From Chloroherpetonaceae bacterium (GTDB taxonomy: Bacteria > Bacteroidota > Chlorobiia > Chlorobiales > Thermochlorobacteraceae): DNA of 64,000 bases. The stretch lies in NCBI GenBank assembly GCA_025055975.1, contig JANWWM010000061.1, positions 1-64,000 on the forward strand, given 5' to 3'. Below, piece after piece: positions 3-4,199 of the stretch. Numbering within the stretch: the first letter of the stretch is position 1; the number at the start of each line of letters is the position of its first letter. The translations under genes were made by a program, and so were the position numbers. The notes under the pieces are model-generated. The model saw only the letters and a list, made by a program, of their open reading frames with translations. It ran no database searches and was not told where the DNA came from.

Positions 3-980
3 GCGCCGAAGGACTTTGCGCCCTCGCCGCTCTCTCGCGTCGCGCTCGTTCTGAACGAGGGCTTGTTTCAACGCAACAACTCAACGCTCACCTACTACGA
101 GATTGATTCCAATCGCGCCTTCACGGATTTCTTCGAGCGGCAAACGGGCAGGCGGCTCGGCGACACGGGGAACGACATCGCGCAATACGGCGGCAAAATT
201 TACATCGTCGTCAATGTCAGTAGCACGATTGAAGTGCTCGATGCGGCAACCTTCGCGCCAATCAAAACGATTTTGTTTTTCAACGGCGCGCAACCCCGAC
301 AGCCGCGCCACATCGCGTTTCACGGGCGAAATGCGTTCGTGAGTTGCTACGACGGCACAATCGCCGTGATTGACACGGCTTCGCTTTCCATCGCGCGAAA
401 CATTCAAGTCGGTTCGTATCCCGAAGGCGTGGCGATTCAAAACGGCAAACTCTACGTCGCCAATTCGGGCGGACTCAACTTCCCCAACTACGACAGCACG
501 GTTTCCATCATCGACCTCAATTCGCTTGCGGAAATCAAACGGCTCGCGCTTCGCATCAATCCGACGAGCGTCGACGCCGATGCTTATGGCGACGTGTATG
601 TGATTTCCAACGGCAATTACTCCACCGTCCCGATGCGCCTTTTGGCGATTGATTCGCGCGCCGACACGCTCAAAAAAATCTTCGACTTCGATGCGAGCCG
701 CATCGCCATCATTGATAGCCTCGCGTTCATCGCTTCAAACAACGGCGTGATGACGCTCGATGTCAGAAACGAGCGCGTCATCAAACCGAATTTCATCGCG
801 CCCTCAAACTTTCAAATCCTTTACGCGCTCAGCATTGACAAGGCGCGGCGCGAACTCTACTGCGCCGACGCGAAGAACTACGTCGTGAGCGGCGAAATGA
901 AGGTCTTTGATTTCAACGGTCAATTCAAACGGAGTTTTCAGACGGGCTTAATCCCGAACAAAGCGGTTTTTGTTCGGTAA
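3..980 (+). CDS. BtuG/YncE-like beta-propeller surface protein, 5' end outside window
   Basis: The frame is open to the left edge, so the N-terminus, including any signal peptide or lipobox, lies outside the window. The visible 325 residues form a repeat-rich beta-propeller with blades of the type GxxPxGVAI...LYVANSGG. Motifs such as LVLNEG near the start and VVNVSSTIEVLD match my memory of the DUF5074/YncE-like family. That family includes the Bacteroides surface corrinoid-binding protein BtuG. The protein ends in VFVR with no T9SS sorting domain, so it may be a lipoprotein or periplasmic. It lies 28 bp upstream of another propeller gene and two genes from cobO, which supports a role in B12 capture. 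Substrate binding is inferred from family and context only. Confidence 0.7.
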   Translation, partial: APKDFAPSPLSRVALVLNEGLFQRNNSTLTYYEIDSNRAFTDFFERQTGRRLGDTGNDIAQYGGKIYIVVNVSSTIEVLDAATFAPIKTILFFNGAQPRQPRHIAFHGRNAFVSCYDGTIAVIDTASLSIARNIQVGSYPEGVAIQNGKLYVANSGGLNFPNYDSTVSIIDLNSLAEIKRLALRINPTSVDADAYGDVYVISNGNYSTVPMRLLAIDSRADTLKKIFDFDASRIAIIDSLAFIASNNGVMTLDVRNERVIKPNFIAPSNFQILYALSIDKARRELYCADAKNYVVSGEMKVFDFNGQFKRSFQTGLIPNKAVFVR

Positions 981-1008
981 TTCATCAAACGCATAAAAGG
1001 AGGAAAAA

Positions 1009-2661
1009 ATGAACAGGATTTTCACGCTTCTCGTCGCGCTCTGCCTTTTTGGCAACGCTTGGCTGAACGCGCAACCGCAGAGGGTCATCTTTGCGATTCG
1101 CGGGTTCAGCAACCAAGCCCTGACCTACATCAATCTCACGTCGGGCGTAGTGATTGATAGCCTCGCGCCGCTTGGTCCCGTGGCGAATGAACTGCACGTC
1201 TTCAACAATCGCTTGTATGTGATCAATTCAGGTCAGTTTCCGAATGGCGCAAACGCCTCGATCCAGCACGGGCGACTGGCGAACTTCGTCGTTGGCGCCG
1301 CGCCCATCAAGACGCAATCGATTGCGACGGGCTTGAACCCGTATTCTATCGCAAGGTTCAGCGTGCCGACGAATGAAACCTTCGGCGTGGTCTCGAACTT
1401 GCTCGATAGTTCCATTTCGCTCTATCGCTTGAACGCGCCCTCGTTCAACCCGAATCAAGACACGATTCAGTTCGTCCGCAAAATCAGCATCGGGCGACGC
1501 GGACCCGAAGGCGTCGCCATCGTGCCTGAAACCAATGGCGCGCGCGTTTACATTGCCAATGCCTACAATCCATCGACTTTTGATTACGACAGCGTCGTAA
1601 CGGTTTGGCGATTCTACAACAACGGCGCAAACGATAGCTTGGTAACGCGCATTCAAGTTCGCTTGAATCCGCAGAGCGTTGCCGTCGATGGAAACGGTCG
1701 TTTGCATGCGGTTTGCACGGGCAATTATGGCTTCGGTTCGCCCGCCGTTTTTGGAAGAATCTCCGTCATCAACCCCGCGACAAACGCGGTCGTAGCGACG
1801 ATTAACGTGGGCGCGTCGCCATCGCAAGTCGTGTTCAATTCGCAAAACATCGGCATTTTGAGCGGCGGTTTCGTGAGCGATCGTTTGATTCGTTACAACG
1901 CGAACACGTTTGACACGATCCCAACCCCGCCGATTGCGGGCGGAAGCCTTGCTTTGTTGGGCGACACGCTCATCATTGGGCGAACTGGCAGAATCACGCT
2001 CTACAACGCCATCACGCTCGACAGCATCACGCAGTTCAACTTGAAACCGGGCGAGCCTTACGCGGGCATCGTGGCATTCACGGTCGACGCGAGCGTTCTG
2101 CCCGTCGAGCTCGTGGAGTTCGTGGGGCGCAAAACGAGCGACGGCGTGTGGCTCTCGTGGAAAACCGCGTCGGAACGGAACAACGCAGGCTTTGAAATTC
2201 AGCGCAAATCGCAAGGCGGCGAGTGGAACGCGCTCGGCTTCGTTAGAGGCAAGGGCACGACCACCGAAGCGCAATCCTACTCCTTCTTGGATAGAACCGC
2301 GTCGGGCATCGTTCAATATCGCTTGAAGCAGATTGACTTCGACGGTCAGTTTGAATACAGCAACGTGATTGAAGTCGACGCGGGCTTGCCGAAGACCTTT
2401 GCGCTTGAACAAAATTACCCCAACCCGTTCAACCCGACGACCATCATCGCGTATCAACTGCCGATTGCGAGCGACGTGAGGCTTGAACTGTTCGATATGC
2501 TTGGCAAGAAGGTCGCCACGCTGGCAAATGGTCGGCAAGAAGCGGGCGCATACAACATACGGCTGGATGCGTCGCGCTATGGGCTTGCGTCGGGAATGTA
2601 TTTCTACCGATTGCAAGCGGGCAATTTCGTTTCGACGAAGAAGATGATGTTGGTGAAATGA
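1009..2661 (+). CDS. Secreted YncE-like beta-propeller protein with T9SS sorting domain
   Basis: The 550-residue protein starts at an ATG preceded by a strong AAAGGAGG ribosome binding site. It has an N-terminal signal peptide (about residues 1-22, ending NAQP). Residues about 25-360 are beta-propeller repeats resembling the upstream gene. A short linker domain around residues 365-455 (VELVEFVGRKTSDGVWLSWK) is typical of Bacteroidota/Chlorobi surface proteins. A type A T9SS sorting domain begins at QNYPNPFNPTT near residue 468 and ends KKMMLVK. The protein should cross the outer membrane through the type IX system and be anchored or released outside. Its stop overlaps the next start by 4 bp, so translation is coupled. 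The proposed ligand, a corrinoid, is inferred from the cobO neighbour. Confidence 0.75.
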   Translation: MNRIFTLLVALCLFGNAWLNAQPQRVIFAIRGFSNQALTYINLTSGVVIDSLAPLGPVANELHVFNNRLYVINSGQFPNGANASIQHGRLANFVVGAAPIKTQSIATGLNPYSIARFSVPTNETFGVVSNLLDSSISLYRLNAPSFNPNQDTIQFVRKISIGRRGPEGVAIVPETNGARVYIANAYNPSTFDYDSVVTVWRFYNNGANDSLVTRIQVRLNPQSVAVDGNGRLHAVCTGNYGFGSPAVFGRISVINPATNAVVATINVGASPSQVVFNSQNIGILSGGFVSDRLIRYNANTFDTIPTPPIAGGSLALLGDTLIIGRTGRITLYNAITLDSITQFNLKPGEPYAGIVAFTVDASVLPVELVEFVGRKTSDGVWLSWKTASERNNAGFEIQRKSQGGEWNALGFVRGKGTTTEAQSYSFLDRTASGIVQYRLKQIDFDGQFEYSNVIEVDAGLPKTFALEQNYPNPFNPTTIIAYQLPIASDVRLELFDMLGKKVATLANGRQEAGAYNIRLDASRYGLASGMYFYRLQAGNFVSTKKMMLVK

Positions 2662-3635
2662 TGAACGGAACGATTCGGCGCGGGGCGGCTCTCTGCCTCG
2701 CGCTTTGGGTTTTGAGCCTTGCCGCGAAAGCGCAGTTTGCCGACAGCGTCGTGAGCGTGAACTTCGGACCGAATTTCAACGCGGGTTACGGACCTGACAA
2801 CCCGAACTTTCCGCGATGCGTGCTGGGGCGACCCGACTCGACGGCGCGTCCGTGCGCGCCCGCGTTTTCGCCAACGGAACTCTTGTCGCTTGGCACGGGC
2901 GGCTCGATTACGCTCTACTTTCGCCGTCCCATCGTGAATTTGCCGGGCGTTGATTTCACGGTGTTCGAAAATCCGTTCTACGTCGGTTGCGACACGACGC
3001 GCGTTTTCGCCGAAACGGGCATCGTGAGCGCTAGCAAAGACGGCGTCGCGTTTTTTGAGTTCCCGTTTCAGGTGATTGATTCGCTTCCCATCAATTCGCC
3101 ATTGCGTTATCGCGGGTTGGCGGGCGTTACGCCCACGAATGGCGCGGCAAATCCGCTCTTGCCTGGCTCGCCCAACCAAAATCGGAGCGGCGGCGATTCG
3201 TTTGACCTTGCGACCATTGGACTGGACACGGCGTATTTCGTGCGCATTGCGGACGCAGGCAACCGCGTCAATGATGGCGGCGCGATGGCGGCGTCGTTCG
3301 ACCTCGATGCCGTCGCCGCCATTCATCAAGCCGCCCTTTCCGCGCCAACTCCAAGCGAGCGACCCAAATCCTTCGCGCTGTTTCAAAACTATCCGAACCC
3401 GTTTAACCCGACGACCGTCATCGCTTACGAGCTTGCGGAGCGAAGCGACGCGCGACTCGAACTCTTCGACGCGCAAGGCAGAAAAATCGCAACCCTTGTG
3501 AACGCGACGCAAGACGCGGGGCGACACGCGGTCTGGCTTGATGCGGCGCGCTACGGGCTGTCGTCGGGAGCGTATTTTTATCGGCTTTCAACGCCAACAT
3601 TTTCTCAAACCAAATCGATGCGGTTCATCAAGTAA
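2658..3635 (+). CDS. Secreted cell-surface protein with T9SS sorting domain, function unknown
   Basis: The protein has 325 residues and starts inside the stop of the preceding gene (ATGA overlap). A signal peptide ends near AKAQ at residue 25. The middle domain (about residues 28-225) contains VSVNFGPNFNAGYG and DFTVFENPFY. It reads like the adhesive or ligand-binding surface modules often found beside BtuB-type receptors, but I do not recognise a named family with certainty. The C-terminal T9SS domain starts at QNYPNPFNPTT and ends MRFIK. Tight packing between a propeller gene and cobO makes it part of the same unit. A part in B12 or other cofactor capture is inference. Confidence 0.7.
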   Translation: MMNGTIRRGAALCLALWVLSLAAKAQFADSVVSVNFGPNFNAGYGPDNPNFPRCVLGRPDSTARPCAPAFSPTELLSLGTGGSITLYFRRPIVNLPGVDFTVFENPFYVGCDTTRVFAETGIVSASKDGVAFFEFPFQVIDSLPINSPLRYRGLAGVTPTNGAANPLLPGSPNQNRSGGDSFDLATIGLDTAYFVRIADAGNRVNDGGAMAASFDLDAVAAIHQAALSAPTPSERPKSFALFQNYPNPFNPTTVIAYELAERSDARLELFDAQGRKIATLVNATQDAGRHAVWLDAARYGLSSGAYFYRLSTPTFSQTKSMRFIK

Positions 3636-4199
3636 ATGCGCAAACTTCACCTTTACTACGGCTACGGCAAAGGCAAAACGACGAGCGTGATTGGACTGGC
3701 GATTCGGGCGTTGGGCGCAGGTCAGCGCGTCGCCATCGTGCAGTTCGACAAGGGCTACGATGGGCAGAACGAGCACTACTCGGAGCGAAAAATTCTGCGA
3801 GAGTTGAAGGAGAAACTTGGCTATCCGATTGAACTCGTGCCGACGGGCGCGGAGCGAATGATGCCCGACGGCACGTTTCGCTTCAAGAACGAAGCGCAAG
3901 ATTTCGCCGAAGCCGAGCGCGGCTTGGAAGCGTCAAGAGCGTTCATTGAATCGGGCGAACTCGATTTGCTCATTCTCGACGAAGGGCTTGCCGCCGTCGC
4001 TTACAACCTCATTTCAAAGGAAACCTTGCTCGCGCTCATCGACTTGTGGGAAGAGAGAGACCGCCCGTGCGAACTCGTGATTTCGGGGCACAAAATTTGG
4101 GACGAGCTCGCCGAGCGGGTCGACCTCATCACCGAGATGCGAAAGGTCAAGCACTATTTCGACCAAGGCACGCCCGCGCGCTTGGGCATCGAGTTTTGA
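3636..4199 (+). CDS. cobO: Cob(I)alamin adenosyltransferase, CobO/CobA/BtuR family
   Basis: The 187-residue protein carries an N-terminal P-loop GYGKGKTTS (residues 9-17). It also shows the family pattern IVQFDKGY, a LDLLILDEG Walker-B-like segment and a C-terminal HYFDQGTPARLGIE. Enzymes of this family transfer the adenosyl group of ATP to the corrinoid cobalt, giving the coenzyme form of B12 in the cytoplasm. The ATG follows the previous stop directly, so the gene is translationally coupled to the surface proteins upstream. This placement suggests that corrinoid captured outside is adenosylated on entry. The length is normal for the family. The gene converges on ilvE with no spacer at all. 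Confidence 0.92.
   Translation: MRKLHLYYGYGKGKTTSVIGLAIRALGAGQRVAIVQFDKGYDGQNEHYSERKILRELKEKLGYPIELVPTGAERMMPDGTFRFKNEAQDFAEAERGLEASRAFIESGELDLLILDEGLAAVAYNLISKETLLALIDLWEERDRPCELVISGHKIWDELAERVDLITEMRKVKHYFDQGTPARLGIEF

Follow-up and report, generated by a model that had tools for sequence, protein, structure and literature searches.

A probable vitamin B12-scavenging operon of Chlorobiales that supplements the BtuBG system with two T9SS-sorted relatives of BtuG and BtuH

The window, a DNA stretch of 64,000 nucleotides, starts at base 1 of contig C88 of a Candidatus Thermochlorobacteraceae-type bacterium (Chlorobiales), a heat-loving, photosynthetic organism whose close relatives include Candidatus Thermochlorobacteriaceae, uncultured Chlorobiales and Candidatus Thermochlorobacter aerophilum. 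According to the open reading frame list of the window, four genes lie on the forward strand at this contig edge (Table 1). Genes 1 and 2 are 28 bp apart, genes 2 and 3 overlap by 4 bp, and genes 3 and 4 adjoin with 0 bp between them, which agrees with the initial annotation of four contiguous genes with such junctions. Because the window begins at the edge of C88, inside gene 1, this gene is cut short. Its reading frame is open at the 5' end and lacks approximately 24 N-terminal codons compared with its relatives, and no upstream DNA is present on C88. Gene 4 belongs to the CobA/CobO/BtuR family (156 bits with PF02572, against a cut-off of 25.7), with scores falling under the NCBIfam equivalog cut-offs.

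Table 1 Genes and domains of the operon segment located at the start of the window
Feature	Position	Strand	Evidence
btuG (gene 1), 5'-truncated by contig edge; predicted surface lipoprotein lid of the B12 receptor	3..980	+	phmmer against PDB; lipobox Cys in relatives
Gene 2: BtuG-like propeller, Sec signal peptide, T9SS type A tail	1009..2661	+	TIGR04183, AF2, Foldseek, hhalign
Gene 2 propeller domain (modelled region)	1072..2118	+	AF2 model
Gene 2 T9SS type A C-terminal sorting domain	2416..2649	+	TIGR04183 E=2.5e-12
Gene 3: Sec signal peptide, BtuH-like domain, T9SS type A tail	2658..3635	+	Family scans, AF2, Foldseek, PDB profile search
Gene 3 BtuH-like domain, without Pfam family	2733..3332	+	AF2 pLDDT 93; profile against PDB sequences
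Gene 3 N-P-F codons (Asn105, Phe107), putative equivalents of BtuH2 Asn399 and Phe401	2970..2978	+	Invariant in 42/42 homologues
Gene 3 T9SS type A C-terminal sorting domain	3390..3632	+	TIGR04183 E=2.3e-9
cobO (gene 4), corrinoid adenosyltransferase	3636..4199	+	PF02572 E=1.2e-45

The family scan of gene 1 returned a beta-propeller, and phmmer searches against the PDB matched it to BtuG1 of Bacteroides thetaiotaomicron (8ptf, 8ptd and 8blw, E of about 6e-57) and to BtuG2 (8bmy, E=6e-19). Judged from its sequence, gene 1 is a true BtuG that is closest to BtuG1, and its product is predicted to bind corrinoid. A lipobox Cys was found in every orthologue with an intact start (L019, L020 and the rest of alignment A5), while the start of the window copy lies off the contig. 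The relatives thus indicate that the gene 1 product is a predicted lipoprotein and not a substrate of the type IX secretion system.

Gene 1 is linked to btuB and a cobalamin riboswitch, directly in relatives and, very probably, across a contig break in its own genome. The complete six-part order of cobalamin riboswitch (RF00174), btuB, btuG, gene 2, gene 3 and cobO was present in G001 and G003, and the order and tight junctions were conserved in these two and a third genome of the same genus, G002, which begins inside btuG. Furthermore, the riboswitch immediately precedes btuG, gene 2 and gene 3 in G005, G007 and G008. The arrangement is not a matter of chance, since order and junctions are conserved across the genus and the btuG-gene 2-gene 3 block recurs in these three other genomes. 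Two genomes (G009 and G012) have the riboswitch followed by btuB, btuG and cobO without genes 2 and 3, and the related G004 and G006 have retained btuG with genes 2 and 3 missing. In all relatives with intact contigs, the cobalamin riboswitch lies directly upstream. A proline iminopeptidase-type gene occurs just upstream of the riboswitch in the genus (L030:2270-3253, on contig C50 of this genome).

An Rfam scan of the window alone gave no match, because the riboswitch sits on another contig. The single RF00174 match of the genome (114.9 bits) is located on C50. Downstream of it lies the gene of a receptor of the BtuB type (TIGR01779, E=8e-37; PF00593 and Plug), for which the B12 receptor model was the top NCBIfam match. 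C50 and C88 are very probably neighbours separated by a gap of roughly 70 bp, because the btuB frame of C50 runs to the first base of that contig and closes with ATGA, the 4-bp overlap of btuB stop and btuG start that is also seen in G001. The operon is controlled by a B12-sensing RNA in relatives and, most likely, in this genome as well. The link to B12, which the initial annotation had drawn from family resemblance and cobO, is thereby well supported: both btuB and the riboswitch were found upstream in relatives and very probably, across the contig break, in this genome, and gene 1 is a genuine BtuG.

The product of gene 2 has a signal peptide ending in LNA-QPQ and no lipobox, with a T9SS type A tail, scoring above the TIGR04183 cut-off, in its place. 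Its AF2 model, obtained from only 8 input sequences and with one of the five models clearly best, reached a pLDDT of 84. When this model was compared with PDB structures including BtuG2 using Foldseek, the first 13 chains were all BtuG1, BtuG2 or BtuG3. Profile alignment with a BtuG alignment (hhalign) gave a probability of 99.6 and E=1.9e-23, with 24% identity over 234 columns. Gene 2 is a T9SS-sorted remote BtuG paralogue rather than a canonical BtuG, because it has a T9SS tail and no lipobox and so is not of the surface-lipoprotein type. A propeller equipped for type IX secretion had been proposed previously as a substitute for the lipoprotein. The T9SS tail and the BtuG fold of gene 2 agree with the first part of this proposal, but the T9SS propeller is an addition and not a replacement, because gene 1, the genuine BtuG, encodes a lipoprotein in all relatives with an intact start. 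A locus of another family (L079 in G068) independently combines a riboswitch, a gene 3 homologue, BtuB, BtuG and a T9SS-tailed propeller.

Gene 3 had been described only as a second T9SS-sorted surface protein. Its T9SS type A tail, again above the TIGR04183 cut-off, is in line with that description, which nevertheless missed a remote BtuH-type domain. No credible Pfam match was found for the N-terminal domain in any of 42 homologues. The AF2 model of this domain was of high confidence (pTM 0.91), and its best PDB match by fold was a BtuG1 chain that includes the BtuH domain (E=5.5e-6, TM 0.53), a modest match with large gaps; BtuH2 ranked fifth, and CBM32/discoidin folds came next. A profile of the 42 sequences searched against all PDB sequences returned two matches below E=10, namely the BtuH domain of BtuG1 (8blw_B, residues 395-497, E=4.8e-6) and BtuH2 (7biz, E=0.0024). 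The diversity of the 42 sequences was needed, as a profile built from six close orthologues gave nothing meaningful against the PDB. The profile and fold matches share one target, the BtuG1 chain, and are hence not fully independent. Alignment of gene 3 with a three-sequence BtuH alignment (hhalign) gave E=1.5e-7, and the likeness covers the N-terminal half only.

In BtuH2, B12 is contacted at its phosphate by Asn399, at its lower base by Phe401 and at its ribose by Gln333 (PMC8941943). One constant numbering offset of 100, deduced from the published construct, places Q, N and F at these positions of the PDB chain. With this numbering match, the putative equivalents of Asn399 and Phe401 are invariant among the gene 3 homologues, whereas the Gln333 position varies and is Phe in the window protein. 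The corrin contacts of BtuH2 (Tyr510, Trp511, Trp577 and His476) fall in the half that is not alignable with gene 3. Homology of the gene 3 domain to the BtuH domain is well supported, and the gene 3 product is predicted to bind corrinoid. Two other assignments were rejected. DUF4465/BtuJ gave no match at E≤0.1 in the 42 homologues, and a plain CBM32/discoidin module would leave the B12 linkage unexplained, such folds also scoring below the BtuG1 chain. The NCBIfam family LIC_13355 (NF033170) is a sub-threshold relative that matched 41 of the 42 homologues (best E=2.6e-13), the window protein scoring far under the curated family cut-off.

The linkage of the gene 3 family was assessed by searching with its profile irrespective of genomic location. 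Among Bacteroidota outside the order, 28 of 37 homologues, from 9 families, had BtuG, BtuB or both encoded on their own strand at a distance of at most 3 kb, and these linked genes commonly overlap by 4 bp or so. Three further homologues (L097-L099) lie downstream of a riboswitch, bringing the number to 31 of 37. In Verrucomicrobiota, homologues were present in 50 of 289 genomes. RF00174 occurred within 6 kb of 52 of the 99 homologues from the two phyla, and all 52 were downstream of it on the same strand; the chance of a gene lying within 6 kb of RF00174 is about 0.5% per gene. These counts are inflated by related genomes, yet the pattern is common to nine Bacteroidota families and a second phylum. 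A search for related loci recovered mainly close relatives and one Limisphaerales locus, which lies directly downstream of the only cobalamin riboswitch of that genome. A T9SS tail (E≤0.01) was present in 28 of 41 full-length Bacteroidota proteins of the gene 3 type. The gene 3 homologues form a hitherto unnamed family, distantly related to BtuH, that is widespread in Bacteroidota and Verrucomicrobiota.

Several individual loci of this family differ in their composition. PEP-CTERM-like tails occur instead of T9SS tails on four Verrucomicrobiota homologues (L107, L108, L111 and L035), and the one in L035 is directly downstream of the sole cobalamin riboswitch of its genome. In L097-L099, a short ORF lies between the riboswitch and the gene 3 homologue. 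It contains DUF6580 (Pfam) in L097 and L098, a resembling ORF adjoins btuG in another locus (L139:4208-4774), and it may encode a B12 transporter component. Two loci from genomes without RF00174 (L081:7600-12080 and L082:8160-10317) have a gene 3 homologue beside a different propeller, L081 also having a TonB receptor, and these homologues perhaps serve another ligand. Furthermore, a BtuG-matching ORF that runs off a contig end (L092:7228-9150) also spans a gene 3-type domain and is a possible fusion in the reverse order to BtuGH.

The host is apparently unable to make vitamin B12. We found no CbiC in this genome, in G010 or in eight additional genomes of the family; it was present in G009 and G012 as well as in two Chlorobiaceae-type genomes. 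With this genome at 85% completeness, the evidence for absence comes mainly from its near-complete relatives. Two Chlorobiaceae-type genomes (G011 and G028) have cobalamin riboswitches, but neither CbiC nor BtuG was found in them; they may have another uptake route or a missed gene. The SprA translocon is present in this genome (SprA_N, E=6e-72) and in all BtuG-bearing genomes tested, and is absent from four Chlorobiaceae-type genomes without BtuG. Proteins with T9SS type A tails usually end up anchored to the lipopolysaccharide of the cell surface.

Our preferred explanation, to which we assign a probability of roughly 75%, is that the genes form a B12-regulated operon for corrinoid scavenging: two T9SS-sorted corrinoid catchers, probably bound to the surface, would act in addition to BtuBG, and CobO would process what is imported. 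The window would hold the 3' part of an operon consisting of a cobalamin riboswitch, btuB, btuG, the T9SS-sorted BtuG paralogue, the T9SS-sorted BtuH-like protein and cobO. The operon would be expressed when B12 is low. BtuB and its BtuG lipoprotein lid would form the outer-membrane uptake complex, and the products of genes 2 and 3 would be exported and probably, being type A substrates, anchored to the cell surface. There they could catch corrinoids and pass them to BtuBG, and CobO would then adenosylate the imported corrinoid.

Alternatively, only BtuB, BtuG and CobO may handle corrinoid, genes 2 and 3 encoding T9SS-anchored structural or adhesive proteins, for example a glycan-binding jelly-roll and a propeller, whose place in the operon would be coincidental. 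The likeness of the gene 3 fold to CBM32/discoidin domains, the low identity of gene 2 to BtuG (about 24% in the profile alignment) and the retention of btuG without genes 2 and 3 in G004 and G006 are all consistent with such a division. It nevertheless seems unlikely, given that in two phyla gene 3 homologues recur close to the riboswitch, BtuB and BtuG, that the sole PDB sequence matches of gene 3 are B12-binding BtuH domains and that BtuG structures head the fold list of gene 2. A more far-reaching proposal, which we also regard as improbable, is that the two T9SS-exported corrinoid binders, one a propeller of the BtuG type and the other a minimal jelly-roll of the BtuH type, are released as cobalophores and that the gene 3 family comprises phylum-crossing exported B12 binders, which carry T9SS tails in Bacteroidota, end in PEP-CTERM in some Verrucomicrobiota and perhaps include the LIC_13355 lipoproteins of Leptospira.

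Release of the exported proteins as protein cobalophores, which would bind corrinoid at a distance from the cell and either bring it back to BtuBG or keep it from neighbours, is in itself quite unlikely. The type A tails of genes 2 and 3 provide for export, but such cargo is usually retained on the surface, and no release signal was identified. Precedents are provided by the vesicle-borne BtuJ of B. thetaiotaomicron, which acts in a siderophore-like manner (PMC12751083), and by the quenching of corrinoid sharing by added BtuG (PMC13374852). Action on another ligand such as heme or another metal complex, with cobO as a chance neighbour, is highly improbable: BtuB-like receptors are remotely similar to heme receptors and the gene 3 family occurs beside a non-BtuG propeller in genomes without RF00174, but the riboswitch in all intact-contig relatives, the homology of gene 1 to BtuG1 and the best NCBIfam match of BtuB all point to B12.

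The preferred reading, a surface-bound supplement to BtuBG, would extend the BtuBG/BtuH system, described mainly in gut Bacteroides, to B12-scavenging Chlorobiales phototrophs, with its binding modules re-equipped with a different export route. It also suggests a testable B12 role for a Pfam-less family, one relative of which, a surface protein of Leptospira, has until now been characterized only as an adhesin. Should the exported proteins turn out to bind corrinoid, the range of secreted proteins that capture nutrients would go beyond lipoproteins and vesicles.

The operon is a variant of the known BtuBG/BtuH system, and its most novel component is the unnamed, BtuH-related gene 3 family. It resembles the BtuB1-BtuGH (BtuG1) locus of B. 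thetaiotaomicron (PMC10404256, PMC12751083) in riboswitch control, as known from Bacteroides loci, in its BtuB receptor, in a BtuG propeller that is the one most similar to gene 1 and in the BtuH domain within the locus. In that BtuGH, the G and H domains each bind cobalamin alone, and BtuH was proposed to hand cobalamin to BtuBG (PMC12751083). In B. thetaiotaomicron, BtuH occurs either as a fusion with BtuG or as a lipoprotein. Here, by contrast, the BtuH-like domain forms a T9SS-sorted protein of its own, and the locus also contains a second propeller, which is T9SS-sorted as well. Compared with BtuH2 (PMC8941943; PDB 7biz), the domain of gene 3 is, at about 200 aa, shorter and has neither Ig-like domains nor an alignable C-terminal half, and the protein has a T9SS tail in place of the lipid anchor. 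The LIC_13355 family lipoprotein (NF033170), a sequence relative of gene 3, has been studied only as a laminin- and plasminogen-binding protein of Leptospira, in literature that does not mention a B12 role (PMC11891782). Finally, like the vesicle-linked B12-binding BtuJ/DUF4465 proteins (PMC12751083, PMC13398666), gene 3 encodes an exported jelly-roll protein of a B12 locus, for which capture away from the transporter is conceivable, although it differs from them in that its family does not match DUF4465.
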